DNA of 64,000 nucleotides from Polytrichum commune. Lineage: Eukaryota; Streptophyta; Polytrichopsida; Polytrichales; Polytrichaceae. Each line of letters opens with the position of its first letter. The stretch's first letter is position 1. Positions 6,901 to 35,060 of this stretch are shown piece after piece. The position numbers and the translations under genes were made by a program. Under the pieces are notes generated by a model that did not search any database, had not been told where the DNA came from, and saw nothing but the letters and a program-made list of their open reading frames with translations. Where the stretch lies: contig OX485806.1 in assembly GCA_950295325.1 (NCBI GenBank), positions 53,935,169-53,999,168 of the forward strand. The letters run 5' to 3'.

Positions 6901-9725
6901 AATTTTTTATCAAGTGCATTTTTTCCTTTGTTATTACCAATTTTTGTGTATTGCTTCATTCTACTAGGCATTACCTTACTATTTTATTGAAGTCCTACCT
7001 AACTTCCAATTTTAGCATCATTGCATACTACCACCGCTACCACATATGTTTACGATCATGGCTTTCTATTGGGTTTTTGTTATTGTTGAAACTATTTCAT
7101 CCTTGTCACTCTTCCTTGGTCACCTTTATATCCAATAAATGACATCATCTACCTTACCATGGTCGGTAAGCTAACAACACCTATGAGTTTCCCACCCCCC
7201 TTGGGAAATTTATACAACCTTTGGGGATATTCATTCAAATGGCTACCCCAATTCTAATTTTCTTGGTAGTATCAATGTTACCAATATCAGGTAGTAACTT
7301 GTATTACCAATGTTGTTGCCTTCATCTCCTTTATAAATGGTTTATATTGCTCAATGACACACACTACCTTCTTAATGCCATTGTTTTGATAGTCATAGGA
7401 CCTTAATATAAGATTTGTTTATTATCCACTATCCTTATTCCAATCTATTAATATCCATCTCATTTAGCTTAAGTCAAACTTTGTTATACAATTACTACAT
7501 CTAATCCTCGGACCTTCATGGCACATTATACAAATTTAACACATTATTTCATATGTTACTACCTCTTTATTCCTATTGAACAAACCTTTATCCACTCGAT
7601 TGATTATTTTTTAAGCTATCAACCACCAATTTCAAGCAATAGTTCAACACCACCATTCAACATATACAATCAAATTGAGACACTCTGTCACCACCATGCA
7701 TATTTTCTTTTATACACATACTTGGAATGTAACTTCAACACACATTCTTTCCAAAAGGTAATCTAATATGGATTTTCCATACAAAATTGGTCACCCAAAA
7801 CATTGTTGTTCTTCTTTAACTCCTCACATGTTTGAGCCTCATCTTATTTCCTATCCTAACCAATTCATAAAACATTGGTTTTTTTCATGGAATTTTTTAT
7901 TTTATCTTTATATAGTCTTTTTTCTAATCCTTATACGCATACTTTAACCAATTTTTACCATTGTAAAGTTGAGCAACTTCCACCTCTAACATGGTCCATG
8001 CTTAAACCCTAAATAATGTTTTTGTTTTGGGAACAATTGAACAAATGTAGGCACCTCAATAAAATTAACATGAGAGGGATTAAAGATGGTAGGGAACCAA
8101 TTGCATACTAAACTTATGACAAATTTATAAAAAAATAAGGGTATACAACACCGGTGAAGTGGAAACTATGAAATTAAGGTATGAAATCCTATAGTACCAA
8201 AGAAATTGAATAGGGGGAATGAAATATTGAATGCAAAATATTGCACAATGCGACACAATGAACAATACGCAAACATGTGACTAAGGAAAATGAGTGAGTT
8301 AAAACTCATACACAATATAAGGAACAACCACACATTTTTGCTATAAAAAACAATGATGATAGAGTAAATGACAAAATGCACGATTTGACAAACCCATAAG
8401 AAAAAAGGGACTCCACACAAACTATATATGTAAATACTTGGTTTTTAATTGAATATTCTATTGATGCATGCTCATTGATGTATTGTAGCTATATTCAATG
8501 CATTATAATTTCCATTAAAATAAGGCATTCAATATCATATTCAAAAGACCCAAATTCCCTAAATACAAATCAAAGCATATTAAATGTCCAATAAAATGGA
8601 AGGCCCATGCACGTCCAAACACATTGTCATGGGAACTTCCATTCAGAGGAACCAACTTAATGGTAATTTTGTTCTGGATTGAGCGAAGGCATCATGACCT
8701 CCCCATTCTTTCATTGTTCCAAAAAAGTAGGAGATCATCCTCGAGATCCAAACGGGTAGGCAAAGTCAAGGTTCCAAGGCACAATGGTAATCCAACCTTG
8801 GGAATTGAGGTAAACATGGAGAAATGGGAACAAAGGCATGTTGAATTAGAGGCTAGGAGCTGGGAGTTGATGCACTAGAGGTGTGCCATATGGAAAGGTG
8901 ATCAAGGTTGCATGAAGGGGTTGGCCCCACCTATAACTAAGAGTTTCCAATTTTTATTTTTGAGTCCTTGGTTTGATTTGAGGGGATCCTCAAGAGGCTT
9001 TGTGGGTTGCTTCTTCCCATAATTGGGAGCCCACAAATTTATGGAACGTGAACTAGATTCTTTGGAAGATTATTTTCTAGAAATTGTTTGAACACCCTTG
9101 TATATATATACATTGCATGTATGTTGTGGTCTATTGTGCATCTAGGGTTGCATGATGGGGTTGTCATAAATAGGGTACTTAACAAATATGCTTGAATCTT
9201 TGGTTTAGTCTTTGACCTCTTAAGTGGGTTACAATTTAGTGTAAATTGAATTATAATTTAGGCAACATTTTAATGTAGGTCATGGTCTGCATATTTTGGG
9301 TCCTTATGAAATTACATGGGGTCTTTTGTTCATGACCAACCCTAAAAAAAAAATTCAAATTTGATGATTGGAAATTTGCATTTGAAATCTAGTAATGTAT
9401 CTAGGATGTCATTCCTTATTTGTTGTTTCAAGGCTTTCTCAATAGTATGTGCATTGTTGGAGGTGTTTGTTCAACTACTAGAGAATGAACCAATGAATGT
9501 AGAGAGAGGGGGTAGATTACTATGTGTCTTAGTAACAAACAATGAAGTTAACCATTTTATATCATTGATGAACTGAAAACCACCTAAAATATGCATTGGC
9601 AATGTGCCAATGATATATTTGGAACTATGTTTTGTTGTGATGATGACTATGCTCCTTTGCAAAGGAAAATATTTTTTGTATGGAAAAGCAATCATTGTCT
9701 CATTACATGGAATTGCCGACCTCAA
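3924..9725. other. AT-rich DNA without recognisable gene
   Basis: I found no gene, tRNA or terminal repeat that I can support. A short AT dinucleotide run lies at about 3964-3979. The stretch around 8620-8890 is somewhat richer in codons for charged residues, but I recognise no domain in it. The rest is low-complexity AT-rich sequence, probably old transposon debris. Confidence 0.45.
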
Positions 9726-11750
9726 TCATGAAGTTTTCCAAAGTTTTGGGGGCTCGATATGAAGGTCCGGGGTCAGTAGCCACACACGGCGAAGCCCTGC
9801 AGGAACTCTGAAAGGCTGCCGGAGGTAGGAGAGGGCTAGAGTCGAAGTAGCACCGTTGTTGCTCCTCGAACCCTCTCCTCCATCCACCCACCTGTTCAGA
9901 TTCCGAAAGGGCAGCCATAAAAACCCTTACACACGCACTATAAAACTGTTACACTCACCACACCAACCATCTCATTCTGCTTGCTGAGTTCTTGCGTATA
10001 CTCTGCTGGAGACGAGAGCGGAGACAACTGATGCACTTAGAAGTTCCGGAGTAGAGAGAAGACTGTCCACGGAGAGATACAAGATCGACGCCGCCACACT
10101 AAGTAGTACCGGAGCTTGAAAGAGTCAACTGACGGAGGTGGCCAAAGGAGAATACTGAAGACGGAGACTGCGAGAAACGATTAAAGGAGAGTGCCCGAAG
10201 CAAATCTACAACAAAGCTTCACCGTTACTGACATCACCAAAGCAGCGGCGTCGCAAAGGCAGATCCAGTAAACAGAGACAGCCGCCAACAAAAACAAAAC
10301 AAGTCATTCTTTAGCCTAGACCTTGCTTAGATCAAAACCCACATTGCTCAGATCTAAGAACTAGATCCAGATCACACACATCTGGCCAAGAATTAGAAGT
10401 TCAAGCAACCCATAGACAGTTGATTGAAAACTTAGATACTTCATTGATTCTGATTGCAGCCAATATCAGGTATTATAGACACAAAGGTGGTGAGCACCAC
10501 CGTTATTGCAAGTAGAACCAAACATAGCCACCCATAGCAATAGTTAGAAATAGATTGCACAATACCCACCAAACCTTAAAAGTTAAACTAGATCTTGAGT
10601 AGTTTGACGAAGATTGCACGTTTGTAGAAAAATTACATGCTTTAAAGGTAGAGAAGAGAAAGTAAGCTGCCAAACTTAGAATCACCTACTGAGAGATCAG
10701 AATCCACCTTCGGTGTTGCCGAAACACCTAAAGGGCGACAACTTAAGCAGATCTAGAAGCTTAAAGCAATACCAGATCTTGAGTGAACCGGGTTCACATC
10801 AGAAAACACAAATAGTTCGAAGTAGCTTGAAGTCCTTAGAGTAAAGAAGGTAGATTGCCGATTACAGAGATCTTGAGTGAACCTGGTTCACATTAGAAAA
10901 CACAAACAATTCGAAGTAGCTTGTAGTCCTTAGAGTAAAGAAGGTAGGTTGTTGATTACCGAGATCTTGAGTGAACCTGGTTCACATCAGAAAATACAAA
11001 CAATTTGAAGTAACATGTAGTCCTTAGAGTAAAAGAAGGTAGGTTGCCGATTACAAAGCCCTACCGATACTCATTGAAAAAACACCTGCTCTCGAAAGTG
11101 AGGATCCAAAACGTCTCTCGGCGCTACCGAACTTCCAGAGACCTGCAGCCCTAGGAGAGAAGTCGACATAGAGCAACACATCCAGTGATACTCAGATGAT
11201 TGACTAAAACCTGAAGATTGAAGTTGATAGAAGCTGGAAGATTGAAAAGTGACGCAGCTAAAGGATTGAAGGGCGATAGTACTAGAGGATCAAAGAAAGG
11301 CAAAACTGGAGGAGTGAGGGAAACGTAGAAGAAAATCTGTAGAGCGGCGAAGGGAGAGGAGGGAAGGTTTAAAGCTGGAGGAGTACAAGGCGAAGCCAAA
11401 GAGGGAAGTTGGTGGAAGCTGGAGGAATGCACAGCGAAGAAAGAGGTAACCATAACGGCGAGGTGGAAGGAATAAAAGGGGGGAAGAAGGAAGCAGAGCT
11501 GATGCTGCTCCTACTATAGACCGCGGGGCTGGAAGCCTGCCCGTGGATTTCATAAGCCCTTCCCAACCTCGGAGCTTACTGGACGCCGCTGGGACCGAGG
11601 TGCTGCCAAAAAGGAGGGAGTGTTACTGTACTAAAAGCCGGAGCTGCTGGAGTTGCCGGTGCTGCGGGAGAAAGCTTGTGGAGCAACTCCAAAGTTTGAT
11701 TCTTGCTGCCCAACAAACCAACCAGGTAACACTCAACCCTCCTCCTAAGC
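9726..11750. other. GC-richer tract upstream of the non-LTR element (possible 5' leader or promoter)
   Basis: Base composition changes sharply near 9715-9730 from AT-rich to GC-richer, purine-rich sequence, and then grades after about 11700 into the A- and C-rich sequence typical of the downstream non-LTR element. Open frames on both strands are short and show no family. The tract contains the 94-bp tandem repeat at 10774-11057. It could be the 5' untranslated and promoter region of the element whose ORFs begin at 12140, because LINE 5' regions often carry tandem repeats. It could equally be an unrelated insertion or old host exon or promoter DNA. I cannot place a 5' end. Confidence 0.35.
10774..11057 (+). 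repeat. 94-bp tandem repeat, three copies
   Basis: Units begin with AGATCTTGAGTGAACC at 10774, 10868 and 10962, an exact 94-bp period. Each continues through GGTTCACAT, a stretch of AAACACAAA type, TAGTCCTTAGAGTAAA and a GATTAC-type end. The copies differ at scattered single bases. A less similar AGATCTAAG segment near 10350 may be related. Confidence 0.85.
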
Positions 11751-12139
11751 ACACACTTAGACACTTAGAGCACACATATAATTAACAAACAATTTCTCTT
11801 GATTTCATAGAAGACACACACTTAGACACTTAGAAGCACACACATAAAAACTAGTTAAGCACACAACACTTGTGATTTATTAGAATTAGTAGTAGTTGCA
11901 CTTACATAGAAATGATGGTTGTCAATACAACCACCATCATCTTTGTTTTATGGTTTTTAAGCCCCCTATATTGGACAAACTCACAATGTGCACTCTCACA
12001 CCTTTCACACCTTTGTCATGAGAAATGTCAAAACACAAACATAAGCATCATAAGTTAAAAAAATAATATACCCATAAAATATCACACTCCTCTCTCTTAT
12101 GCTACATATCAAAACTCAACCAACAAACTTAGAACGCTA

Positions 12140-12529
12140 GTGAATAATTGGGAGAAAAATAAATATATAAACTCTATATTTTTCCTAGCCGCATATCCCT
12201 TTCAAGCCCCACTTGTTCATAAGTGGAATGGGAATATGTCTAGGACACAAAGAAGAATTTTCATGAACATGTATAATAACACAAAAATACTCTCTCTTTG
12301 CAGAATGGCTCACTTACGCAACTTGGACAAAATTTTTGATGGTGCTAAAGATATGGACATTTTTCAAAACAAGAAAAGAACATCTAGCATTGCAAGTCTA
12401 ACCATAGTAGAAAAAAACAAAAATAAGAGCAACACACCAAAAAAAAACCCACGTCTTTGGCTTGGATTCAAAGCTTTGAATGCTTTGAATTCAAGCAAAA
12501 GACTTGATATGATACCTCACAAAATATGA
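12140..12529 (+). CDS. Small upstream ORF of the non-LTR element (129 aa, function unknown)
   Basis: This intact 129-codon frame lies directly before ORF1 and matches no family I know. The product is basic and Asn/Lys-rich, with a hydrophobic patch near residues 12-20 and a Lys/Asn-rich stretch near residues 90-105. Its stop codon overlaps the ORF1 start in an ATGA junction at 12526-12529. That arrangement would suit termination-reinitiation, which is known for some insect non-LTR elements. The composition matches the rest of the element. The start at 12140 is simply the first ATG; the real product may be shorter, or the frame may not be translated at all. Confidence 0.4.
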   Translation: MNNWEKNKYINSIFFLAAYPFQAPLVHKWNGNMSRTQRRIFMNMYNNTKILSLCRMAHLRNLDKIFDGAKDMDIFQNKKRTSSIASLTIVEKNKNKSNTPKKNPRLWLGFKALNALNSSKRLDMIPHKI

Positions 12530-13689
12530 GCGAACTTATCAAAAGTGAAATGAGTGACAAAGAGGCTTTAGAGTGTCAAAATTGTGTCCCATCATTCTCA
12601 TGCGTACCACAAGAAATGTGGCTAAACATGGATGATTTTTTAACACAAAACTTTCACCACACCCAAGTTCCATCCGATGTAGATGTTTGTGAAGGATTCT
12701 CTATAGATTATCATATTGCTTTGTTATTTCAAATTGATGATATGCTCATTCCTAAAAAAGAAACATTAGATAAATTCACTAAAAAATTAGATGACATGAA
12801 AACTATGTTTGGGGATGACATAAGCGACCCCATAGCAATCATGTGTACACATGGGAGGAGGCAATGGTCGGGTCATGCAAAAATCCATCTAAAATATGTA
12901 CATGAGGATGGAGTCAAATTACTCCAAGGCCTCCGCCCATTTATTATCCGCCTAGCAGACAACAAAATGCATCGAGAAAAAGTTTGCAAGTCATATGATA
13001 CTATTGCCTTTAGCGAGATGTTGTCAATCAAAATCACAAGTGATACTATAAAGGATCAAAGTTGGTATGCAATCTATGAAGAAATCATATTAGAAGGATT
13101 CGAAAGAGGGTTTAACTATGAGATAACACATGTTAGGAAAATAGAGACCCATAACTACGCTTGGATAGTGGCTACTAGTCCCAAGCAAGCTACCAATATC
13201 CGTAAAAAGAAAATCACTTTTGGCCATGAAAATATAAATGTCTCTATGGGTAAGCCTACCGGTGATAATTTGCCAAAGAAGAATGCGCTTATACTCATTG
13301 CAAAGAACTTGAATAGGCTCAAACCCAAAGAGATATTAGAATCGGAAATTAGAGCATGCATGGGTGAGAAAAATATTCTCAATATCTAGTTCAAAAATGA
13401 TGCCCAAGGTAAATTCACGGGGGTGTGTAATATCCAATGTTTGAGTGCCGCGGTATACAAGAGATTTGTAATGAAAAACCATAAAATATGCAACAAATAC
13501 ATAGAGTTTTCTCCTCATCCTCAGAGTTTGGATGGAATATCCAAATCCTCAAACGAGGAAATTACACAGTTGGCATTTAATGATGTCACCACGGCCTTAG
13601 CAAACACGGTAGAGGCAAATTTGACAAAAAAACCCAATACTCCACAATACTATATTAAAAACCTTTCCAAAAATACAAAAATAAAATAA
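12526..13689 (+). pseudogene. ORF1 of the non-LTR element, RRM-like RNA-binding protein, one in-frame stop
   Basis: The frame starts at the ATG in the ATGA overlap and runs for 388 codons, interrupted only by a TAG at 13387-13389; the same frame then reads on to 13689. ORF1 proteins of non-LTR elements bind the element RNA and act as chaperones in the ribonucleoprotein. Residues about 245-335 can be read as one RRM fold: a first strand of RNP2 type (ALILIAKNL), a helix (PKEILESEIRACMG), and a third strand of RNP1 type (GKFTGVCNIQC) just after the stop, then a helix and a last strand ending in YIEFSPHP. An earlier block near residues 190-240 may be a second, weaker RRM-like unit. The stop falls inside the RRM, so it would destroy the domain unless read through. 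The rest of the protein (residues 1-180) is unrecognised. Confidence 0.65.
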
Positions 13690-14580
13690 AAATATATTTC
13701 TAAATACCTCCATCCCAATCGAAATCAACAACACCATTGCACAAAACACCAAAGCAATAACCAACATACAAACATATACAACTAAATAATATACACTATA
13801 TACACATATTACAATTAAAATATACAAACAACAAACCAATACCAATAGACAATACCCACACCAAACTCAATATAAAAACTCATATAACTACTCACACATA
13901 TCCCAATCCCAATGTCAACACCACTATCAACACCAAACCACATTCCAAATCCGATACCAAAAACAAAAAATCCTATGCATCTTCCAATACCAAACCCAAA
14001 TCCAATACAAATACCTTATAAATCACCACAAAAAACACCATACGGGCTTGGCCTATCAGCCTCGCCACAAAAAACTACTAATGAGATATTTATACTACCA
14101 CAACCTCAACCACATCTCTAATACAATCATAAAACTTCTTCACAAATGCAAAAATAATTATAAGGTATTTATAAATACCACCAACACTATGTATAAATTA
14201 GACTCCTAAAAAAAACAATTAAATATAAAACTAACCACAATAAACTTGAAACCATAAACCCAAAAGATACCTACCAATTCAAAAACACCAATTACCAAAA
14301 CCTTAAAACACAAAAAACTAACAAAATATACAATATTAATATAACCAAAACATTCTCAAATACAAAAACCAACAAACCACAACATAAATATTACAAAGCA
14401 ATACCAACTATCATACAAAAAATACACGTAAAGAAACTAAACACAATACTCAATAATACTCCAATGAAAGCACAAATAACCAACATACAAACAAAAACCA
14501 AACCATTTACCAAACACGTCAAAAGTAATAACCAAACAAACAACATAGTCATTAATAAACATACAAAATACCTCCAATGA
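13690..14580 (+). other. Spacer between ORF1 and ORF2 of the non-LTR element
   Basis: About 890 bp of very A- and C-rich, G-poor sequence. Open frames here are short and Pro/Asn/Thr-rich, for example 13912-14121, and I would not call them genes. The one G-rich island, at about 14043-14072, nearly repeats at 14636-14665 just inside ORF2. The ORF2 N-terminus may lie somewhere in this spacer, but no clear domain is visible before 14581. Confidence 0.5.
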
Positions 14581-14665
14581 ATGCCGTACACACTCGGGAG
14601 GGGCGGATTACTCTCACTTATAAAAATTAAAACGGACTCGGCCTCCCGGCCTCGCCACAAAATTG
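14043..14665 (+). repeat. Pair of about 29-bp G-rich direct repeats (14043-14072 and 14636-14665)
   Basis: Both copies contain GGCCT, a short variable centre, then GCCTCGCCACAAAA. They differ at about five of 29 positions. The second copy can fold as GGCC-TCCC-GGCC. They stand out as G-rich islands in a G-poor region and could be a structural RNA motif or the trace of a local duplication. Confidence 0.55.
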
Positions 14666-14853
14666 AAAACAAATACCAATTCACAAACAATTGGATACCC
14701 AACACAATAACAAATCACACACCTCAAGACAACATAAATACACACTTATCAACTAAACAACTAACAAACATAACACCCGCCTTCCCTAACTTTTTTACTA
14801 CAATTAAATTCATACTCACTAAATATCTAAAAATAAATAAACAAAAACCCAAA

Positions 14854-14934
14854 ATACTCCAACTCCATGGATACTACTTCATCAATAAATTAACATTATT
14901 ACAATGTGGGGATATAGAACCCAACCCTGGACCA
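14854..14934 (+). other. 2A-like ribosome-skipping motif in ORF2
   Basis: The residues encoded at 14905-14934 read CGDIEPNPGP, matching the core 2A signature D-[VI]-E-x-N-P-G-P, preceded by a Leu-rich stretch (LTLLQ) as in functional 2A peptides. In that family the ribosome fails to join the last Gly (14929-14931) to Pro (14932-14934), so two proteins come from one frame. 2A-like peptides are known in picornavirus-type viruses and in several non-LTR retrotransposons. Here it would release an N-terminal piece of at least 117 residues from the APE-RT polyprotein. The motif is intact even though the ORF is dead. Confidence 0.85.
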
Positions 14935-15315
14935 ATGCCTAACATTTTACGTACACATAAAAAAAGAGCCAAAACATATTTTATTCCAAACATAATAAAA
15001 CTACAACCGGAGTATCAACACATAGCTAGTACATTTGCTCCCATACTAAGGCATAATCACACACTACATCACCAAACAACCATCACATATCCACACTTAC
15101 ATCAATACACCCAAATACAAAGCAATTCCCCATCAACCCACATACTATATGCTTTAATCATTACTATAAACCCCTCAATAGACACATGCAATAACATACT
15201 AGCCCAACCACACATTTACCACTTTAACAACATATGGACCAACATACTAATCATTAGACTAGCCAACCTTAACAACCCACCCGAATGACACATTCTAACA
15301 CAACACCCATACACA

Positions 15316-16419
15316 ATGTTTGTTGAAAATAACAAAGATATAATACATCCCAAAAACTCTATACATACTAAATTATATATATTTATTCACAACCAAAAGA
15401 CTCCACCTACACCAATCACACTCCAAAGGAAATTCCCCTTCCTCTCTGAAGAATTAATTACAAAAACACTCCGATGCCTAGAAAACATAAATGAATACTC
15501 ATACCCACCTCCACTCCCAAACATCCCCACACCAACACCAAGAACCATCACAAACACCAACCAAGAAACAAACATAATAACTTGGAACGCCTCATCGCTT
15601 AACACTGCCTTACCAAATGTACAAAGCCTGATAAATTACTCCTTTAAAAACACAACAATTATAAATATCCAAAAAACCAAACTTACAGCAACCAATTCCA
15701 CAAAATACATACAAAACCTATTCCCTAAATACAAGCTCATTTTTAACAATACACATGCCCTCACAAGATACATACAACAAAAAATGCCTTACACCCCTGG
15801 AAGAGGTGGCCTACTCACACTAATTCATAACAAATACGCATTTCCTGGCAACGTCACCAAAATACCCACGCCATCAAACATATATCCTTATTTACAAATA
15901 ATCAAAATAAACAACCATCCACTTCTGCCATGGCTACTCATACACATGTATATGCCCACACACTTAGACGACACACATCTCATTCCCTACATCAAAACCG
16001 CAATCACCAACCAAATAAATGCGCACCCAAACCACACGCATATATTATGTGGCGATTTTAACAGAGATATTGTACTCACTGGAAGACAAAATAACAACAA
16101 TAATACACCACCACAAGAAGAAGACATCCAATGGAAAAACTTCACCACAACCCTCAATCTAGAATATATTTCAACGAACACTAACATTACCAGACAAGGA
16201 AATTATAATTACACATCAACTAGCGTTATAGACGGTTTCTATATCAACTCACCAGACAACAATAGATTCACCTCTACAACAAACATAAACATGAATCTAA
16301 ACTCAGACCACTACCCAGTCACCTTACACATACCACAAAACATACTCATAGCTAGACCACCACCCCCCGCAAATATTACTCCAACTAGAATACTAAATCC
16401 ATTCCCACCGGAAACTTAG
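15316..16419 (+). pseudogene. APE-type endonuclease domain of ORF2
   Basis: This frame follows the TGA at 15286-15288 in the same phase. Residues encoded from about 15571 to 16340 carry APE/exonuclease-III-like motifs: a first strand (NIITWNASSLN), the region where family members have QETK, then RGGLLTLI, MYMP, CGDFNRD (Asp at 16054-16056) and NSDHYPV (SDH at 16303-16311). APE endonucleases of LINEs make the first-strand nick for target-primed reverse transcription. The usual metal-binding Glu of the QETK motif is Lys here (AAA at 15673-15675), a likely inactivating change. The frame ends at 16419; the following linker continues in another phase from 16422. Confidence 0.8.
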
Positions 16420-16421
16420 AG

Positions 16422-18698
16422 AAATTTAATATAGAATTTTTTGAAGCAAATTCCACGCAACTAAACGAACTAACCAGCTTACTAGAGAACCACAACCACC
16501 TCACCTCTGATCAATGGGAAGAAACATGTATAGCATTAGACAAAATTGTAGGAAAAATCTCAGTATCACTTGAAAAAACCTGCAAAGCAGCCCCAATACC
16601 AACCCTTACAAACAGAACAACACAGCAAGGTGGTTTTCTACCACGAAAATTATCCAAAGAATGGAAAAACCACCTCGACACATAACATCTTATTAGAAAA
16701 ACTATATACATTGCAAAAAAACAACCCATACAGGCAAACTCACCCAATCTTAAATGAAATCCAAAACCACCAACACGTGCAACCCATCGTAAATGAAATC
16801 CCATACCCACCTACAACAACCATTCCCCCAAATGAATGGATTGACGTCATAGCTGCTATCACAAAAACTGCCAATAAAGAAGCTAGAAAAATCACCACAA
16901 AATACACCAAAAACTGTATCCTTAAAGCTGTATCAAAATACCGCCAAATGTATGAAAAAAATCCCAAAAAGGTAAATAGGAAAGTTTTTAAACACTCCGA
17001 AACCTCACCCCTCGACTTCATCACAAATAGACAAAATAATATTCTAACTAGCCCTAAACACATTGCAAAAGAAATATACATTCAACAATCCATCAACAAC
17101 CGTTCAATAGTACCCACTTGCCACTATCAAAACATTCACCCACCATACTGCACATGTGGCGTTAGACAATATCCATGGCATGACTTAGAAGGATTCACGA
17201 TTGACCAACGTGGAGAACCCCAAACCCCTCTTCATACATACTTTGACCAAGAAACATATGATTTCTGCCTTAAAAACCTAGGAAATAATAAAGCCCCAGG
17301 ACTAGACAAAATTTCTAATTCAATCCTAAAAAATATGCCGCCACGTTTTTACAAATTACTCTTTCTATTATTTAAACACTGCTACAAACAAAAACAAACC
17401 CCCGCATCGTGGAAAACTAGTCTAACAATTTTACTATATAAGAAAGGTGATGCATCACAACTTACTAACCACAGACCTATTGCACTAGCTAACACTATAT
17501 ACAAACTATACACAAACACATTAACCTCTATTATTTCCGCTAATAGTGAAAATACCAAATACTACATGATAGCCAAGAAGAATTCAGAGCAGAAAGAGAA
17601 ACATCTAGACAATTTCAACTCCTCATTGCAGTATTAGAAGACGCAAGATTTACGAACTAATATATATATATCCTCTACATTGACTTCAAAAACGCCTTCG
17701 GATCCATTGACCATGTAAGACTTTTAGCCATAATGAAAGACCTCGGATATCCAATCGACGTCATAAACCTCATAGAAAATATATACTTACAATCCTCTAT
17801 TATATATATCGGAGAATACTTTGGAAAAACCCTACCCATTCTCATTTAAAGAGATACAATATAAAGAGACATTCTTAGCCCATACTTATTTTTAATATTT
17901 TTAGAACCCCTTTTTAGATGGTTACAACAAGATAATAATGGATACACTTTCGGAACATCCAAAGTTAAAATTTCATCTGCAGCATATGCTGATGACTTAG
18001 CAACGATTGCTAACAAACTAAAATCATTACAAATACAACTAAATAAATTAGACAAATTCTGCGAATGGGCAGGAATGGACCTCGGAATACCCAAGTGTGC
18101 AGTGACCGGATGCCCTAATAAATGTAAAATGAATCTCATAACATTCAAAGCCCTGATCCAATCTACCAATATAAACTATAAAAACCAACCGTCATCAGTC
18201 TTAAATCAACACGAACCATGCACTTATCTCGGAATAAATCTTGCACCATCACTTATATGAAAAATACAAATAAATACCACTACAACTAAAGTTATCAAAC
18301 AATGTCAAGCCCTTGTAGCTTGTAGTTATAGTCTGACACAATTTATACTCGCAAAATTCGGAGGTACCAAAGAAATAACCCGCATAAAATACCATCACTG
18401 CGTTAGATCACCTATCACCAGAACATTATTCCTACTCAAACATGAAGCCGGATTCCACCTAAAAAGTACAATAGATAGTTTCCTATTAAATCCATCCCCA
18501 CTAGAAAATGCATGGTTGAAAGAAGCACAAAATCTACAGGGCTTAAATGCCAACACTTCACTTAAACTATTACAAAAAATCCTATTGCATAATATAATAA
18601 AACTAAAACAAATAATCATACCTAATGGCACCACCTTAATGAATCCAGACGAATTTAAAACATACAACTTCAATCCTACAAAACTCATCAAGAGTACA
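16422..18698 (+). pseudogene. Reverse transcriptase domain of ORF2 (frameshifted)
   Basis: The linker after APE reads in phase 3 from 16422 to about 16685, then phase 1 to about 17575, then phase 3 to the nested LTR. RT landmarks in order are NNKAPGLDKISN (about 17284), a segment ending LLYKKGD and then HRPIALANTIYKLY (about 17430-17510), the FRAERETSRQFQLL region (about 17583), motif A YIDFKNAFGSID (from 17676), an ILSPYLF segment (about 17870), and motif C AYADDL (YADD at 17985-17996). A thumb-like region follows. Stops interrupt at 17658, 17847, 17862 and 18258. The YADD catalytic pair is intact. Sequence up to 18698 is joined in phase to 21544. Confidence 0.85.
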
Positions 18699-21538
18699 TG
18701 TGGTACTTTTGGGCCACCCCCTTTCGAGGGAGCCTAAAAGTATCACACAAGCCCTTCGGTGAAGGTGGCCTGCATTTGCAGGCGCCCAAGCCGAACCCGG
18801 ATGATAGGTGTATAACGTGAGTAGTTAGATTTTTAAGGGAGATTAAATATGCGTCGTAGTACCTCCGGAGGTTAGGCCTTAAGTTTTTACTAGTGTGGCT
18901 TTAAACTCCACTAACCAATTTCATATCTAGTTCTAACCTTAACCTACAACCTATTCTACGCGCAGACGCACCAGCCTTGAAACCAAGGCAATCCTAATTT
19001 GTGAATTGGGATGGTTCTGATACACCCAACCGGGTGTGACTCATACCACCCTAACTCAACGAACGGAATAACGACAATTTGATGGACCATTCAATTCTTC
19101 CTATTTCTTTATTTAGTTCTATTTAGTTTTCTAAGCGGGGGAACTTGGCCTAAGTCCCACCCTTCACACAAATTCCTTCTTAATTACTTACTTTTGTTTG
19201 CACGTCCTAACTCACTACATTAACATATTAGGCATCACCCCTTACCTCGGGTCTCTTGCCAACAAGGGTTTACGATTTATTTTGTATGTTTTGATTGTTA
19301 AATGTGTTTACACTGGATAGACCACGAAATGCAACTCAATGGGACCAGGGTGACGGGCGACCTGTAGGTTCAACCTGTTGCGCAATCTTCATAAATTGGG
19401 GCCATTACTCCCAATCTATGGGGCCAACAACATAATAGTGGATTCGCGGGTCATTAACCCCACCTTTCCACCAACAACATTCAGAGTGGTCGTGTCGGTG
19501 ATTAATCCGACTTACCACACACGAAATTTGCTAATAAATGAAGCTACTACCACAAAACATACCAAGGGCCCCGAAAACAATGCAATTGGGTACTCCCTTG
19601 GCGGTCAAGTGGTCAAGCCACTTGACCTTACGAGATAGGTGAGTGGGTTTAGAAATGCGTACCTTAGCCGTGCTCCCTCCAATCCTAAATGGAAGGCTTA
19701 AGGTTAGTTAATTTACCTCAATTCTCCTCGGTTGATTTGGGCTTGATGTAGGCCGAGCCGCTACCTCCTTCCTTGCTCCACTTTCCGAGCGTCGACCTTA
19801 CCTCCTTCTTTGTAACTAGTTTGGTAGTAAGCGTACCTTAGTTAACAATTAAAATATAAAGTGTTATTCTGCCCTGTAATTTAATCCTAAGCATAATATT
19901 TATACTTAGTGCACCAAATTATCTTTCCAATGATCTAAAAATCACTCTAATCGGATAAGAAATGCAAAAGTTATGAGGGTTGGAAGTGTGAGGTCGATTC
20001 AACCGACCCTTCCAACCCACCTATCTAACTTCTAACTTCAAAAATTCATAGCACATTCCTTACTACTTGGATCTAGGCTTTCCTTATACCATTGGAAAGC
20101 TATGAACAAGCTCTAACTAGAAAAAATTATGACATCAGCAGGTTAAGCTAATAGAAATTCAGCGGACTCCTTGTAACACAGCAGTCAATCAAGAAGGCTT
20201 AAACTATGTATCTCGCCTTCAACAATTCATATCTAATTCAAATCTTAGTCAAATCAAACGTTCTATATGACCCTGGAGAGATATTAAAAAGATGTATTTG
20301 ATAAAAATATGTGATTAGAAAGGTAAGCCGAAGTGAACCCAGCAGGTCCTCTGTAATGCAGCAGTCAACCAGAAGTTCTCAAACTATGTGTCCCATCTTG
20401 CACAATTCATATCTAATTCAAATCATGCTCAAATCAGATGTTCTAAGCCATTTTGGAAAGCTACACAAAAGTTCTACTTGGGAAAAATATAATTTCTTGG
20501 AATTAAAATTCCTATTGGGCTCGCAGGTCTGATCCAGCAGCCGCTACCCACAAGACCACCCAGTTTTTCTACTCCATCTTTGAAAATCCATAACTAATTG
20601 TCATCTCAACCAAATCACAAATGGGAAACGGCTATGGATAGCTATATGAAATCTCTCTAAGAGAAAAATGATAAGTATCTTGTTCTAGCTTTTGAACTAA
20701 GCCTTCAGGGCATTGGCAGATGAGGTCTATAATGCCTCTACTCAAAATTCTACCATCCAACCTACCTCTACAAAAGAAGGAATAATTTTGTTGGTGTGTT
20801 AATAAACACACAACCTAACTAGGAGAGAGAGAGTAGAGGAGGTTCTCAAGCCTTTCTTTTAGACCATTGAGAATACATGCTAAAGGATTTTTTCCTAACT
20901 ACATTGAAGCAGGGCTTCGCCCAAAAACTAGAGAAAGAAAGAGAGCTACAAGGTGGAAGGAGGGGTTTTTAAACCCTCTCACAAAAGGGTTGGACCCCTC
21001 CTCCACCTGATCCATTTTTCAAACCCTTTCCCGAAATTTTGGCTCGGGGGTTTTCCCGGTTGAGGTTGCCACCCTCTCGCCGAGGTGGCTCCGACAAAAA
21101 ACCTTTAGAAATCTTTCTAATTTTTCCGCCATCGAGTTGGCAAGGGGGCAAGTGGGCAAGTATCCCCCTTGCTCTCTTTCTTTTTTGTCTTCAAAATTCT
21201 TCACGCCGATTTTATCTTCTTACGTAAAACACCTCCAATAGTCTTGTGTGCCTCACACTAACTAATAAACTAACACTTGCTTAGCTAGCATCTACTAACA
21301 TTTGCTTAATAACTAGCATCTACTAATATTTGCTTAGCTAGTTGTTTTTACTAGCTAGCATATTTTTTCTACTTTGCTATCTTCTAGCACTACTTAGTTT
21401 CATTTTGACCTTCCTTCTTCTAGGCTAAATGCTAAATGAACTAATTTTCCCTAAATTCCCTATCAATTCTAACTTTTAATGCTAACATTCTAACTAAAAG
21501 TGATCCCGCAGAGTGGTGGACCACTCAAAGGGTTCACA
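18699..21538. mobile_element. Nested 2,840-bp TG...CA insertion with GTACA target duplication (probable solo LTR)
   Basis: The element begins TGTGGTACTTTTGGGCC at 18699 and ends GGTTCACA at 21538. The flanks are GTACA at 18694-18698 and GTACA at 21539-21543. TG...CA ends and a 5-bp duplication are what LTR retrotransposons leave. If the element and one duplication are discounted, the ORF2 frame before it (phase 3, ending Ser-Thr) continues without a stop into the frame that reaches 22524, strong proof of the boundaries. I see no gag or pol motif and no internal repeat of its own ends, so a solo LTR of unusual length is the best reading; a non-coding LARD-like element is possible. Frames such as 19378-19638 and 21039-21227 are not convincing genes. 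It contains the roughly 180-bp tandem repeats at 20030-20720. Confidence 0.85.
20030..20720 (+). repeat. Degenerate tandem repeat of about 180 bp, about four copies, inside the nested LTR
   Basis: Anchors of the type AATTCATATCTAATTCAAATC recur at about 20221 and 20401, with weaker forms near 20040 and 20581, a regular spacing near 180 bp. Each unit then has a block resembling TGGAAAGCTA or its variants and a stretch ending in GAAAAAAT. Similarity between neighbours is moderate. Confidence 0.6.
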
Positions 21539-21543
21539 GTACA

Positions 21544-22524
21544 TTAAATATTGCGAATCAATTATTTTGTCACCCTTCCTGTCACCAAAAATACCATCTA
21601 CCCTGCCCACACCACTATCCCCCACAAACCCTCAAGAATGACTATACAATAACTAACCATACCATCCTCCCTCAACATCCAATCCCCCCCATACACCCCC
21701 CGAACCCCCCTATCCCCCACTTAGCCCCTCCTCCCAATAATATGCTCAACAACTCCCGCCAATTTCCTATACATACAATACTTGATCACAAACAACGACA
21801 AGTCATAGATCCTAATGGGATAAAAAGAAAAAACGCATCATACCTATGCCAATGGGCTACATCAAATAACAACACATACAACAAATGGCGCACCCAAAAA
21901 GATTTATTCCCCTATTGTGATGCCAATACTAATCGCCACAACACCGAACTGCTTACCCAATATTATACGAAAAGGCAACACAAACACTTCTTAAACATTA
22001 TCAAAGCCTACTTCTCCACAGAACAACAAAGAGATACTAGATACATTATCCCTGCCACAATAATTCCATTGGCACATATTTCCATTAATGAATATAACCC
22101 AAAAAGTGACATCGAAATAAATACTAATACTATCCAAACACAACTCGACGTCGCTCACATATACGAAGACAATGGCCGACACCTCATAACCATTCCCAAA
22201 ACTAGATTAATGTGGTTATGGAAACAATATCACCAAGCTAAAAATACCCCACATAGTCTAGAACCACCCATCCAATCATTTGAAACTGAAATCGTTTGGC
22301 TATACCAAAGATATAAATACCGTATTCCAAAAACCGACCCACTTAAACGTGCCCAATATACAATACCTACCCCAAAACTGGATTTCCTAATAACAACATT
22401 CCATATCAACCATTCATATTTCTCGTCGCCAGTTACATGCCCCACACAGTTCACCCAATTCTATTCACCATTCTCTAGGGATAGAATATTCGGATCGTTA
22501 GGAAAAGCGTTTGATCACAAATAG
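21544..22524 (+). pseudogene. ORF2 segment between RT and RNase H (after the nested LTR)
   Basis: The ORF2 frame resumes at 21544 exactly in phase with the codons before the insertion and stays open to the TAG at 22522-22524, of which 21742-22524 is 260 codons from the first ATG. Close after the junction is a Cys/His cluster (LFCHPSCHQKYH and on) followed by a long Pro-rich stretch, then a Gln/Thr/Asn-rich region with aromatic patches (WLYQRYKYRIP). I recognise no domain. It is probably the linker between the RT thumb and RNase H in this element group. The Cys/His cluster could bind zinc, but I cannot confirm that. Confidence 0.55.
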
Positions 22525-22529
22525 AAGGG

Positions 22530-23834
22530 AATCGGTTACGCCCACCCCATAACGCAACAGACTTACAACAAACCATCCACTGGGCCCGCATTGCGGCCAA
22601 AAATGACCCCGATACAATAATTTTACTTATTTAAAAGGATATCGACTGGTACCACAACTTTAACCCATATACCGGCCCATTCCTGGACACACACATCATT
22701 GCCCACTTTGCCGCAAATACCATTATATACGAAGAACCTACAATACCACCCGAACTCAATATCGCAAGGAAAGAAGTATCAACACTACGAATATTCTATA
22801 TCCACCACCAAAACAACCACATCGGCACCCACGAACAAATGAATCAACTCACCGACATAGCAAATAACCTCCAAATATTACAGATTCACACACAAATTGC
22901 ACCACCCACCCCCTTAAATACCACCATTAATCCTAGCAAAAAATGGGCTAAATCAAACTATCCAAACGCACCCGCAAATAATGACATATCTATCCCACAA
23001 CTCCCAAACTACCAAACAAACCTACCGCTAAAATTCCACCCTCAATTCAGCTACTACAAAGATGGTTCTTTCACGAAATCCAGAGAAATTAACCCTGGAG
23101 TATGGAGAAGAGAAAGAGCTAGGTACGGTGTCTATAGCCCTAAAGGCCTTAACATCTCTAAAAGACTACATGGACACCAAAACATATTACGAGCATAAAT
23201 TATAGCCATACATAAAACATTAAGAATCATTAATACACTATACCCAAATGAACCCGCATACATATTTACCGACAGTCTAAATGTACTATACCTACTTAAC
23301 ACACAAATCAAACACCCCACACTACATAATAGCCACCCCGACCAAATCACCCTAGCCACCATGGTACAACTACTTCAAAGCCAGACACAACCAATCACAC
23401 TATACAAAGTCAAAGCACATGTCAATATTGACGGCAATGAACAAGCAGATAAACTGGCAAAAGAAGGATTAGAATTAGAGCACAGAATTGCCATTCACCC
23501 ATATGAGCATGCCCATGCTAGCCCATACTATTACCAAAAGGACGTCTGGGCCTCAATGACGGACGTTCCTGATAAGGGCCCCGTTAGATTCCTAGAAAAA
23601 AAATTTATAAAATATGACAGGGAAAATAACTTGGAAAATTTGGCCACACAAACCCTTAATACTTACAAATGGACAGGAAATGCAGATATAGACAAAGAAT
23701 TTTCTAATGAATTTTGGGAAAACCCGGAAATCACAGATAAACAAAAATCATGCCTCATCAAATTCCGAACCGGAACTTATATGGGTAATGCTCGAAAACA
23801 ACTGTTCTTTGGTAGGCAAACATATCCCTCTATT
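22530..23834 (+). pseudogene. RNase H domain of ORF2, catalytic Glu replaced by a stop
   Basis: Phase 3 is readable from 22530, with a TAA at 22632, to about 23834. The RNase H type I core has its four acidic positions in view: YKDGS (Asp at 23061-23063), the AE-x-x-AI helix position, FTDSLNVLY (Asp at 23271-23273), and KAHVNIDGNEQADKLAKEG (last Asp at 23448-23450). RNase H removes the RNA strand after first-strand synthesis. The Glu position is a TAA at 23196-23198, compatible with a GAA-to-TAA change, so this nonsense mutation hits a catalytic residue. A region near 22560-22640 resembles RT helices of plant LINEs only superficially. Confidence 0.85.
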
Positions 23835-23836
23835 AC

Positions 23837-24532
23837 GTGCCTATATGGAATTCATACGAACCGGATACATGGTTACATGTACTGCTTACGTGTAAACAAC
23901 AACAAATACATTCACTTCACCTCAAAAGACACAACAAAACAGTATGGGAAATTAGGAAACTGCTAATATCATCCGAAAAATCTCGATGTTATATTCTCAT
24001 GAATGCTGGCACCTTCAATAACACACCACAAGAAAACACCGTTCCCAACTGGCTACTCCCTTGCACATGCGATACACAAAGATGCCATTGTAACTCCAGA
24101 TTTAGACCTGACATCATGTGTATTAGAGGATTACCATACCAAAATGACCCCCCCACAGACATAGACCCCAACCTCACCATACAATTCATCAAATTCACAT
24201 ACTGTAATGATAGATTTTCACCAGAAACACTCGAAGCAAAAAATAGCAAATACATACCATTAATAGATAGTATTGCTACTAGAGGATGGAAAGTCGACCC
24301 CCTTATTATAATCACTGCAGGCGCCAGAGCCACCACACACATTCCATCAATGAAATCACTCGAAAATAAATTTAAAATACCTATGCCTACAATTAAAAAT
24401 ACCTTTAAAAACATTAATACTATCGCTATAAAATACGCCATGTCTATCCTCCTCCACAAAAGAAGAATAGAAAACCACCAACCACTATCCCAAACACTAG
24501 ACCCCCCCATAGATAAAGTCATAAAGCCTTAA
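23837..24532 (+). pseudogene. Zinc knuckle and restriction-like endonuclease (RLE) at the ORF2 C-terminus
   Basis: After a one-base change of phase near 23840, phase 2 reads CP-x-x then YEPDTWLHVLLTC, the C-x2-C...H-x4-C knuckle that precedes RLE domains in R2-like elements. The first Cys (23838-23840) is read in the old phase and the second is Trp (TGG). The RHN motif follows in LHLKRHN (23927-23935), then a Cys-rich segment (CTCDTQRCHC), then RPD (24104-24112) in FRPDIMCIRG and a hydrophobic strand TIQFIKFTYC about where the last acidic residue lies in relatives. RLEs of R2-type elements cut a target site. Presence of both this and the APE domain is the Dualen/RandI signature. The frame ends at a TAA (24530-24532). 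Confidence 0.75.
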
Positions 24533-24790
24533 CAACCAAACCACTCCACTCTATCCACTAACAATGCACTAGAGACCTGATGACCAAAATCATATTAATA
24601 ATACCTAAATACCAACCATCCTCGTTCTGGTTACTAATGACTGGTGACTATAGTGTCTACTCTCGAAAGGGAGGAGTAGATCTGTACTCCCATACCTTTG
24701 TCCTGTGGACACTGGATTGGGGGTGGATCGAACAGACACTTAATTCACGTCGGTCTCCTCTGGAGACCGAAGTTTTTCTTCTTTTCTTCT
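24533..24790 (+). other. Structured 3' UTR and probable 3' end of the non-LTR element
   Basis: After the ORF2 stop, 24751-24769 is a perfect hairpin with an 8-bp stem (CGGTCTCC, loop TCT, GGAGACCG), followed by a T/C-rich run (about 24772-24790). A second imperfect hairpin lies at 24657-24679 (CTACTC paired with GAGTAG). RLE-bearing non-LTR elements usually end without poly(A) and use 3' UTR structure for recognition. The exact end of the element is not proven. Confidence 0.5.
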
Positions 24791-25794
24791 GGAATTGCCA
24801 TTTTTACACAAACAAATTGAATGGCATTTACCCATTGATTGTACATACCTTAGTCCTTTTGGCTTTGTTGGTGTGATGTCGACAAAATGCACAATGTTAA
24901 TAGGCACCTTCATGTTTCACATTCAATTGCAACCATCCATTTCATTTGTTATTGTTAATATGCTACCCTATGGGTGTCAACCATTAATTTAATGCCATTA
25001 AGAGGTCGGACAAGAGCAACCACGTCGAAGCAAACCTAGTCCATAAATTGAATCACATATGCAGTTTGGATTTAGGCAGAAATAGTGATTTAACCTAATT
25101 TCCCTAAGGTTAGGCAATGGCTACAGCTAGAGCTAGGCCTAGATGATATGAGGTTACCTTGTTTAGAATACCTCGAGATCAAATGACATCTCCAAGTAGG
25201 GTTGAGGGTTTAATATTTCTAAATTGAAGCATCTCCACTAAGTTTGTGAGATTTTGATTAAAACTTGTTAGTTTATAGGTGTGGATTCACACGTCTTTGT
25301 GTGACACCAACTCATGTCATTATAGAAATGTTTTTTTGAGCATAATTGCAAGGATTTCAATAAAAAATTAATTGTTATTAATGGCATTTTCAAATGTAAA
25401 TTTCTTTATTTTTCCTTCATGTAGGGGTTAATCATGATGTTTCAAGATGAAATAAAAAATGATATCCTAGTGCTTCCTAGTGATCACCTTCTCGTACATA
25501 AAACATGTTGGCCTAAATTATAGACAAATCTCTATCCTTATCCAACTATTCCTAAAACAACTAATTTCTCAACCAAGTTATGGCAATTGTTTCATCTAGA
25601 CAAGTACCATTAATTTTGGGAATGGCACATATAACACATGATCTCTTTCCATATAGCTATTAGACAAACCAATCTCCACCAATTGGACACTATGATGCAA
25701 AATTTTAGGTTAATAGTTTCATTACAAACATCTTGGTGATATTTTGATAAAATTTGTAGTCGAATCGGATGAAAATAGTGTATTATGGATGGAT
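24791..25794. other. AT-rich DNA without recognisable gene
   Basis: This is the right flank of the non-LTR element. I see no coding frame of note, no RNA gene and no repeat boundary. Confidence 0.45.
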
Positions 25795-31230: not shown

Positions 31231-32336
31231 TATGGGTATTCAAGTTTAAGGACAACTGTTGCCTTAGAGTTGCCAAACCCAGTTTTCCAAAACTATTGAA
31301 TATTTGAGTTGCAATTATCTCAATATGTTTTTTTATGAATTTTATATTATCAGACAAAAAATTAATAACCAAACAAGTAGATAAATGAATAAATAAAGGT
31401 CTAGGCAAAATAAAACCTATCGCCAATCAGAACTCATCCACCAAATTATTCTCACAACTAATTCAATGTTCAATATTTGAGGGATTTGTGGATTCTCCAT
31501 CCATTCAATCAATATTAGATTAGTCCATCCAATGTTGGAAGAGACGAATTTGTGTCATGGGCGGCCGAAAGCTAGAGTGGGGGACAACGTCTATAATTTG
31601 GAGTAGGGATTCCGCACCAACCATCACCAAACAAGATGGAAGTCAATCCTACACTCTTATATTTACGAATAAAGGGAGCGCGACAAAGGTACAATTCTAA
31701 CCCAACCCAACTATCCATGTAAGGCTAAAGAGTCAACACCTATTTAGCTGCCGAGGGGGTATTCCAACTTCCATCTGTGTGGAGCCTCTTGGAAAAATAT
31801 TGTGGTAATAGTTTTTCTGTTTATAGCTTGTTTGTGTGTGGTGGAATCGAGTTAATCACCGACATAACCACTCTGTGTGTTGTAGGTGGTAAGATAGAAG
31901 TATTGACCAACAGAACCTCATGATGTTGTTGGCCCCTATGGTTGGAGATGATGGCCCCAATCGTTAAAGATTATGCAACATCTTTAACATACATGTTGTA
32001 TCATTCATCAATCCCATTAAGGTGAATTTTCATGATCAAACCGTGTTAGATTAATTAAGAACCAATGAAATTTGTGAAACCCCCTTCGGCAAAAAACAAG
32101 TGGGAACTTAACTATGAGGGTATAAATATCAATCAACCTTCAAGAGACCCGCATTGGGCCTTGAAGGGTCGGATTAAGATGTGTACCAAACATGTAGGTG
32201 GTAATGCCTTAATTTATGAACTGAGTAATTTATGCCATAATTTGTGAAATAGGATTTGCTCAATTAATTATAAACTAAGAAGCAATGTTGAGAGGGTAGG
32301 ACTTAATAAAGGTCCCATCGTTTAGAGAATTCAATT
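31231..32336. other. DNA without recognisable gene, left flank of the gypsy element
   Basis: I see no gene here. The CATAA at 32337-32341 is the left target duplication of the element that starts at 32342. Confidence 0.45.
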
Positions 32337-32779: not shown

Positions 32780-33766
32780 ATGGTATCATTTGGTAGTGTA
32801 CCTCTTGAGCAAACTCAAAGCAGAGGGATTCCTGACCTGGAGCCCTTGCCTAAACAAGTTCTCGATGCCATCTCCCAAGCCGTCGTTATGGCTATGGAGA
32901 AACATGCACATGGTTATGAAAAGAATAAAAAGAAAGTTAGTTTTCCTTCACGTTCTACCTCTCCTTCTTCTACTACTCACCCATCACACACGTTTGAGAG
33001 AGGTAAAAACACACTCTTGCACGACATCCAGAAGAGCGTGCAACCACCTACATTTTCAGGTGGAGCCAACATTAAACTTGAGGTAGTTCCATCGTTTTTA
33101 GGAACAGTAGAAAATTTGTTTCAGGGGGAGCTCTCATACAAGGAGAAAGTGAGAGTAGTTTCCTTTTTGTTGAGAGAACGAGCCCACCTTCGATGGACCC
33201 GTGTTAAAACTGACAGGGAGGAAGCATACAAAGATCCAGTGGAAACATGGTCTTAGGTCAAGAAATTGTTTTTAGAATATTTTTTACCACGTGATCATAT
33301 CCAAAATATGAAAGAACGTTTGAAAGACCTTAGACAAGGGACATTGTCAGTTCATGAGTACAAAGATAGGTTCGACGAATTAGTCGAATATTTTCCGGAT
33401 TCGTATGACAAAGACAAACAAATATTTTATGTTACGGGACTTCAAAATTCAATCAAATATAATTTCAAAGTTTTGAGACCTTATACGTTTGGAAAAACAT
33501 ATAGCATGGCCTTAACGTTTGAGACTAAAAATGTTGAATTAGCGAAAAAGAAGAATTTATCTTTCGATGTCTCCCGTAAGGATCATAGCAAGAAAAAAAG
33601 ATTGGGAAGTGGAAGAGATCCCAAAAAATTTCACGTCCAGAGGGACAAAGCAACGTTCGACCGAGCAATAAATTCACCTACAAAGATCAAGAAGAACACC
33701 AAAAGAAATGATTGTGCCATAATTCTCATGAGCCAGGGCACTTGGCTAAGAAATGTTTGCAACTAA
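32780..33766 (+). pseudogene. gag of the chromovirus-type element (one stop)
   Basis: Phase 2 is open from the ATG at 32780 to a TAG at 33254-33256 and then in the same phase to 33766. The retrotransposon gag core is visible around residues 90-240: PPTFSGG, an LRERAHLRWTR stretch, then VKKLFLEYFLPRDH, ERLKDLRQGTLSVHEYKDRF and DELVEYFPD, as in plant gypsy capsid proteins. It would form the virus-like particle. The zinc knuckle lies in the next phase (from 33712), where CHNSHEPGHLAKKC shows the C-x2-C-x4-H-x4-C pattern with the second Cys changed to Ser, so a frame change near 33700 separates capsid and nucleocapsid. Confidence 0.85.
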
Positions 33767-34206
33767 CGGAAAAACGTCCAAAACAGTCTACAGCGTTGCT
33801 AATGGAGGTGGAACCGCCTATAGTGTCCAAGGGTAAAGAAATAGTTCGTATGTCAGCTACAGTATGTGAGAAGTGGGTAGCGAGTGAACCTACGGTGCTC
33901 CAGGTTCAAGGATCAATTGGTACTCAATCAACTTTTATGTTAATTAATTCAGGATCAACCCATAATTTAATGTCGTCTAAATTTGCATCAAAGTTGGGAT
34001 TTCCTGTCACTAAAATCAAACCTTGTAAGGTTTTCTTACCAATGGTGAGTCAAACCCGATTGATTGTCAATTGTTGGATGTCCCTGTCATATTGCAAGGA
34101 ACACAAACCATTGCAAATTTTGAAGTTTGGACAGGAAATCAATACGACGTCATTTTGGGGATGTTATGGCCTTTTTGACTTACCAATGCACCTGCCACAT
34201 TTATGA
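33712..34206 (+). pseudogene. Nucleocapsid knuckle and aspartic protease of the chromovirus-type element
   Basis: Phase 1 runs from the zinc knuckle into a retroviral-type aspartic protease. The active-site loop reads INSGSTHNL, where the family has D-S-G-S/T, so the catalytic Asp is Asn. The later protease landmark DVILGM is readable in a neighbouring phase near 34150. Immediately after it the sequence jumps into the middle of the RT (see the deletion finding). Confidence 0.8.
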
Positions 34207-35060
34207 ATCTCATAAATACCATATTCAAAGAATATCTGGAAGTCTTCACCCTTGTTTTCATGGATGACATATTAGTGTTTTCCAAAAATGAGGAGAAACA
34301 TAAATAACACCTTGAGAAGGTGTTTTATGTTTTGAGAAGACATAAATTGTATGCTAAGAGAAACAAGTGTCAATCATCCGCACCCAAATTGAATACCTTG
34401 GATATGTGTTGTCTGGCGAAGGTGTCTCAGTTGATCTTAAAAAAATCGAGACAGTGGTGAGGTGGCGCGTGCCAAAGGATAAGATTGAGGTCAGACATTT
34501 TTTGGGGTTGGCTACTTACATGCGGAAATATGTAGGGGATTTTGCCAAGATTGTAGTCTCCATGACGGATTTGTTGAAAGGCAAATTTGAAATAATCACT
34601 TGGACTCGTGATTGTCATGAAAGCTTTGAGGCTTGTAAGAAAGCTTTGGTAGAAGTCCAGGTCTTCAGGATCATGGATCCCTTGAAAGGTGGGCTAGTCT
34701 TGTGCGCATATGCTAGTGATATGGTTGTAGGTGGTGTTCTTATGCAAGAAGGCAGGGTGATCACTTATGAATCTAAAAAACTTAACAATGCAGAGTTGAA
34801 TTATTCATGAGAAATAACTATTAACGATAATTCATGCATTAAAAGTTTGTCGTCACTATCTATTAGGTAGTGAATTTAAGATAGAGACGGATCATTAGTC
34901 ATTACGATATTTGACTAGTCAAACTAATCTAAATCGTAGACAAAGTCATTGGATGGAATTGATGCAAGAGTTCAATTTTTAGAATCAATACATGAAAGGC
35001 AAAGAATATGTTATGGCAAATTCTTTGTCATGTAGACCCTTTCAAATGCAGTGTCTTTAG
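34176..35060 (+). pseudogene. Partial RT and RNase H of the chromovirus-type element
   Basis: The RT begins abruptly with LTNAPATFM (about 34176), then [11 protein letters not shown] (about 34258), the equivalent of the YVDD box, then IEYLGYVLSGEGVSVD and the connection GLATYMRKYVGDFA. RNase H follows with AYASDMVVGGVLMQEGR, where the first Asp of the usual ADASD is Tyr, and YESKKLNNAELNYS before a TGA at 34808-34810. The same phase then reads RHYL and SLRYL segments to about 34990. The front half of the RT, with the LR(M)CVDYR and catalytic-Asp motifs, is absent. Confidence 0.82.

Follow-up and report, generated by a model that had tools for sequence, protein, structure and literature searches.

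Dualen non-long-terminal-repeat retrotransposons are said to have been reported from green algae by Kojima and Fujiwara in 2005, and a cysteine protease has reportedly been attributed to them. Elements of the Dualen/RandI group combine two endonucleases, one apurinic-like (APE) and one restriction-like (RLE), in a single open reading frame (ORF) with a reverse transcriptase (RT) and an RNase H, a layout shared by the element described here. A 2015 survey lists the group from green algae only (PMC4438587), and an origin of APE-type long interspersed nuclear elements (LINEs) by RLE replacement has been argued from Dualen-type elements (PMC4640811).

The window analyzed here is a stretch of 64,000 nucleotides at positions 53935169-53999168 of its contig, in an assembly of 408 Mb and 64 contigs, seven of them of chromosome size. 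It contains an old, dead copy of a very large LINE, unbroken copies of which are present elsewhere in the same genome. With a probability of roughly 0.92, this copy is a member of a Dualen/RandI-group family with recent activity in the same genome. The initial annotation had already proposed the Dualen/RandI layout, and the RT tree, the single-ORF copies and the domain order all agree with it.

Sister copies, domain order and RT phylogeny

The initial annotation had suggested looking for full-length copies; copies with an unbroken frame were found in the source genome, where the N-terminal part of the RT scored in at least 113 places, spread over all seven large contigs and one small contig. 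An open frame of at least 2000 amino acids without a stop inside the match was present in 7 of 113 rows. Seven copies (A-G), picked for their long frames, were fetched, and five of them carry one open ORF2 (2924 amino acids in A, 2663 in C, and 2625 each in B, F, and G); ORF2 is broken in D and E, and copies C and E are 5'-truncated relative to A. Copies A, C, and E are mutually 99.7% identical and B, F, and G approximately 99%, near-identities which suggest that both young subfamilies moved recently; between A and G, the DNA is 86.6% identical. A second family, with an RT 58-60% identical to that of the first, was found in the same genome, and its ORF of 2372 amino acids (one copy) bears APE, RT, PCIF1-like, RNase H, and RLE motifs.

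The ORF2 of copies A and G encodes, in this order, a 2A-like peptide, APE, RT, a PCIF1-like domain, RNase H, a CCHC finger, and RLE, so that the RLE with its finger lies in the same ORF as the APE, and the RNase H between RT and RLE. Pfam matches include RVT_1 (1.5e-29) and RNase H (3.6e-12) in copy A, and APE in A and G (1.4e-5 and 1.6e-4, respectively), with the APE motif residues present in both. All five enzymatic domains, arranged as in A and G, were detected in 14 of the 26 relatives that copy A retrieved (P0001-P0026); several of the 26 start or end inside the element, and those with names are the green algae Cymbomonas and Haematococcus. No APE match was obtained in P0001, P0005, P0008, P0021, and P0022, the third of which is given as Exo_endo_phos by another annotation. 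Some of the sequences scored had also served to build the PCIF1-like, RLE, APE, and RNase H profiles, so the E-values from these profiles are inflated. Protease domains were seen in P0002 (Ulp1) and P0016 (Josephin), and OTU-like matches under the cut-off in P0001 and P0002; P0009 has a PHD finger between RT and the PCIF1-like domain.

The ratio of nonsynonymous to synonymous substitution rates (dN/dS) between A and G was 0.069 for APE, 0.054 for RT, 0.081 for the PCIF1-like domain, 0.045 for RNase H, and 0.093 for RLE, with upper 95% bootstrap bounds of at most 0.153. These low values suggest that selection kept both endonucleases and the PCIF1-like domain. The part of ORF2 ahead of the 2A-like peptide is weakly constrained (0.527). 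An arrangement of this kind might also arise if an APE-type LINE lay beside an R2-like fragment, through nesting or accidental fusion of two elements, as the window copy itself could suggest, being in pieces with a 2.84-kb insertion between the RT and the C-terminal half. That explanation is exceedingly improbable in view of the uninterrupted ORF in five of the seven fetched copies, the domain order shared with the 14 relatives, and the purifying selection on all parts after the 2A-like peptide.

An RT tree, which the initial annotation had also proposed, places the element in a clade with algal dual-endonuclease elements, apart from R2 and L1. Among the 39 rows, which include 21 of the 26 relatives and 4 of 120 listed further matches, the own-genome families and four further relatives form one clade (100/100), nested in a clade with algal and other dual-endonuclease elements (99/99); R2 joins next (93/82), with L1-type elements further out. 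When P0027, P0028, P0029, and human L1 were left out, the 29-row clade obtained 100/99 and was recovered in 200 of the 200 bootstrap trees counted. The element belongs to a known kind, its own-genome families forming a separate clade with the four relatives. Two protein searches returned relatives at 58-93% identity (best 120 of 611 matches) and 40-94% (best 120 of 209). P0157 (nr), an RNase H family protein from a metagenome-assembled genome of Candidatus Nitrosocosmicus, is 54% identical to the PCIF1-RNase H region of copy A and probably represents eukaryotic contamination of this archaeal assembly.

Membership of a single-endonuclease clade (L1-type or R2-type), the second endonuclease being a fortuitous similarity, would be in line with the modest APE Pfam scores and with a single-sequence PDB search of the RLE piece, which gave no match; on account of the latter, profile and fold were used instead, and an RLE fold was predicted for the window copy. 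This alternative is nevertheless very unlikely, and both the nested-element and the chance-motif readings were rejected on the grounds of the single ORFs and the RT trees.

Several observations weigh against assignment to the Dualen/RandI group or against parts of it. Long branches were flagged in the 39-row tree, and the second tree carries warnings of L1-versus-rest long branches and of several rows with atypical composition; neither tree holds a sequence named Dualen, the clade being anchored on algal and other dual-endonuclease elements. The APE of A and G scores under the Pfam cut-off (25.4 and 21.9 versus 27.4 bits), and Pfam gave no match to a cysteine protease in the own-genome ORF1 or ORF2. 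Five of the 26 relatives are without a clear PCIF1-like domain, one of them ending right after the RT, and PCIF1 structures were matched only weakly when a single sequence was used (E 0.023 and 0.053). Finally, the 2A-like peptide is non-canonical (DIKPNPGP) in A, C, and E, and none was present in the frame read in the one copy of the second family.

The decayed copy in the window

The initial annotation had placed the element at 12140..24790. Its 3' end was approximately retained, and the 5' end was moved outward by about 2.4 kb, the copies of TGGAATTGCC flanking the element giving a span of 9718-24789. The parts of the copy are as follows:

9708..9717, plus strand: left target-site duplication (TSD) TGGAATTGCC; the identical 10-mer stands directly after the 3' tail
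9718..12507, plus strand: 5' region, including 94-bp monomers in tandem at 10774-11055; the 5' regions of copies F and G match it over 9787-9913 (74-78%)
12508..13617, plus strand: decayed ORF1; 12517-13617 is 45% identical to copy G ORF1 (tblastn)
14024..14907, plus strand: N-terminal part of ORF2 ahead of the 2A-like peptide, broken (comparison with sister copies)
14908..14934, plus strand: StopGo/2A-like peptide GDIEPNPGP, which fits the core motif
15541..16416, plus strand: APE domain (Pfam Exo_endo_phos_2, 6e-8; GDFNRD, SDHYP)
17188..18347, plus strand: RT in two frames, YADD from 17985; 75-80% identical to the open copies
18333..18697, plus strand: region after the RT, up to the insertion (comparison with sister copies)
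18699..21537, no strand assigned: later insertion of about 2.84 kb, foreign to the element and absent from the fetched sister copies
22069..22724, plus strand: PCIF1/CAPAM-like methyltransferase domain with a frameshift near 22524-22548 (Pfam PF12237, 4.7e-9; mapped from copy A)
23043..23463, plus strand: RNase H domain with three of four acidic residues left (Pfam RNase_H, 1.4e-7)
23831..24508, plus strand: broken CCHC finger and RLE; RHN, RPD, and K present, catalytic E changed to K
24509..24789, plus strand: 3' untranslated region (UTR) and short-repeat tail, matching copies A, B, D, and G at 70-73%
24790..24799, plus strand: right TSD TGGAATTGCC, the copy of the 10-mer at 9708-9717

Approximately 0.3 chance matches to a 10-mer are expected (an estimate) in the stretch scanned, so the TSD in the window is accepted for its position and for the likeness of the element start to the 5' terminus of copy F (GACCTCAA in the window, GGCCTCAA in F); the 5' ends of F and G resemble the window copy from 9787 onward. 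TSDs of 10-14 bp, all different in sequence, were found in the eight copies examined (window, 10 bp; B, 12; C, 11; D, 13; E, 13; F, 12; G, 12; A, up to 14, part of which may derive from the tail). The 3' tail consists of short tandem repeats rather than poly(A), and CTAT repeats end all seven fetched copies. Copies A, B, C, F, and G also have internal repeats at their 5' ends; by analogy with some L1 elements, the 94-bp monomers of the window may be promoter monomers. The last 120-150 bases of copies A-G are, by eye, far better conserved between subfamilies than the remaining 3' UTR and contain GGYCCCTAAAMGGGACC, which is hairpin-like, lacks one base in F, and may be a recognition element for the RT.

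The arrangement of both endonucleases in one ORF2, as first proposed for the window, does not hold for this copy, which is interrupted by frameshifts, stops, a deletion near 18340, and the insertion at about 18699-21537; it is directly visible in the five open sister copies. The individual motifs fared better. CGDFNRD and SDHYP are present in the APE piece, whose Exo_endo_phos_2 match is above the cut-off, as are AAYADD in the RT and three of the four acidic positions of RNase H (YYKDGSF, FTDSLN, GNEQAD), the fourth codon being lost to a stop. In the C-terminal zinc knuckle region, the RHN and RPD motifs stand, and the finger is broken at a frameshift (CPIC reads VPIW in the RLE frame). One catalytic glutamate has been lost in each endonuclease, from QETKL to QKTKL in APE and from FIEFTYC to FIKFTYC in RLE. 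The window copy is 76-81% identical to the fetched sister copies over the main blocks, and its pieces align with open ORF2s from other genomic locations at 62-83% protein identity (a further piece of 40 amino acids, 52%). This piecewise alignment, together with the Pfam matches, argues that the motifs are not due to chance. C to T is the commonest difference of the window copy, with the highest rate at CG (0.25-0.28), followed by CHH (0.17-0.18) and CHG (0.15-0.16), a pattern suggestive of methylation decay.

ORF1 differs greatly in length among subfamilies, with 747 amino acids in copy G and open frames of 1400 and, in copy A, 1825 amino acids; the A and G products are 30% identical over 403 amino acids. 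No Pfam family was matched above the cut-off and PHROGs gave no useful match for ORF1. The N-terminus of copy G ORF1 looks hydrophobic by eye.

As for the surroundings, self-comparison of the 2.84-kb insertion revealed neither long terminal repeats (LTRs) nor terminal inverted repeats; it holds a 220-bp internal repeat and is similar to window positions 31661-31996 and 37201-37302. Two decayed gypsy-like LTR retrotransposons lie in the window, one at 33257-34807 on the plus strand (gag and RNase H pieces) and one at 58742-61240 on the minus strand (RT, RNase H, and integrase pieces). Neither Rfam at gathering thresholds nor ARAGORN (tRNA) gave a match in the window. A gene in which seven sperm-tail PG-rich repeats were matched lies some 5.4 kb from copy E and fits an organism with flagellated sperm. 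Together with the gypsy-like elements and the 408 Mb in seven chromosome-size contigs, this gene fits a moss, the best guess for the host, although each of these features would be compatible with an alga as well. A host outside the land plants, such as a streptophyte alga, which would leave the known range of the group without land plants, is considered unlikely.

The PCIF1-like domain and the 2A-like peptide

PF12237 (PCIF1) matches the window ORF above its curated cut-off. The precomputed Pfam annotation, a count free of profile circularity, places it in 14 of the 26 relatives; with an iterated profile, the domain was detected in 21 of the 26. The PCIF1 core fold was predicted for it, and this fold, together with the low dN/dS of 0.081 and the NPEY kept in 11 mutually distant sequences among the 128 aligned, would favor N6-adenine methyltransferase activity through an altered motif, by which RNA or DNA of the element would be marked. 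Such an activity seems unlikely, since none of the 128 sequences (10 of them gapped there) has the NPPF catalytic motif, read as NPP followed by F, Y, or W, and since HPHN occupies this position in the own-genome lineage (A and G) and FPTD in the second family. With the catalytic motif lost, cap binding is preferred over methylation: from its position the domain could hold the capped 5' end of the RNA, and it would most likely bind this end, a proposal that we put forward as tentative.

In a wider and equally speculative scenario, most of the Dualen group may have, as a core component, a cap-recognition domain that derives from PCIF1 and lies between RT and RNase H; this domain would once have modified the cap-proximal adenosine and, in the plant lineage, have lost catalysis and turned into a reader of the capped 5' end. 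The group would have entered or persisted in a land-plant lineage, with two families keeping both endonucleases. If so, a cap reader would help so long an element to be copied in full. No link of PCIF1 to LINEs was found among the listed open-access titles and abstract openings. PCIF1-like domains in retroelements may, reportedly, be discussed by Iyer et al. in 2016.

The window, B, F, and G have GDIEPNPGP as their 2A-like peptide, D has GDIESNPGP, and A, C, and E have GDIKPNPGP. The StopGo/2A core motif, given as (D/G/C/N)(V/I)ExNPGP in PMC12846837, is thus present in the window, B, D, F, and G. GDIEPNPGP was absent from 200 mononucleotide shuffles of the window. Among P0001-P0029, the only NPGP is the GDIEKNPGP of the Haematococcus relative P0016. 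The jump in dN/dS at the peptide would fit a separate product or, alternatively, initiation of translation at the methionine that directly follows.

Proposed life cycle and comparison with known systems

In the cycle that we propose, the element RNA would be translated into ORF1 and a giant ORF2. In subfamilies with the canonical 2A-like peptide, the ribosome is predicted to skip at NPG|P, yielding an N-terminal piece and the main enzyme. This enzyme would bind its own RNA and nick the target with one endonuclease, reverse transcription being primed on the nick; the second strand would be cut 10-14 bp away, and RNase H would remove the template RNA. Target-primed reverse transcription is suggested, by analogy, by the family, the TSDs, and the 3' tail, and selection on both nucleases suggests that both take part. 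Since the family has been active recently, probably in a land plant, and strong purifying selection acts on both endonucleases, the question of which of them cuts which strand becomes directly testable.

Like the Dualen/RandI elements, this family ends in short tandem repeats instead of poly(A), and its RT groups with algal dual-endonuclease elements; such tails were listed for 8 of 8 RandI families in PMC3747384 (Table 3). It differs from them in its probable land-plant host, in its size of about 12-15 kb, in its 2A-like peptide, in the lack of a detected protease, and in its PCIF1-like domain, of which the available portions of PMC4438587 and PMC3747384 make no mention for Dualen/RandI. No Dualen or RandI in a land plant appeared among the listed open-access titles and abstract openings.

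R2 is not known to have an APE, RNase H, or PCIF1-like domain. The RLE fold and motifs are shared with R2 (PDB 8gh6, 8ibw, 9nl2, 9nl3, 9dou), which also provides the nearest solved RT; in contrast to R2, the eight TSDs all differ here, and no single fixed target is apparent. Compared with the cap-specific adenosine methyltransferase PCIF1/CAPAM (PDB 6irv, 6irw, 6irx), the domain has HPHN in place of NPPF and is embedded in a LINE polyprotein. Its detection in 21 of the 26 relatives points to a connection, so far unexplored, of LINE replication with mRNA caps.

The LINEs with 2A-like peptides (L1Tc and the sea urchin elements) are known as APE-only elements. As in the trypanosome L1Tc and the sea urchin LINEs covered by PMC4981915, a D(V/I)ExNPGP-type peptide stands here in frame ahead of the enzymes, but in a dual-endonuclease element, and LINEs with possible StopGo translation would thereby include a clade that has both endonucleases.
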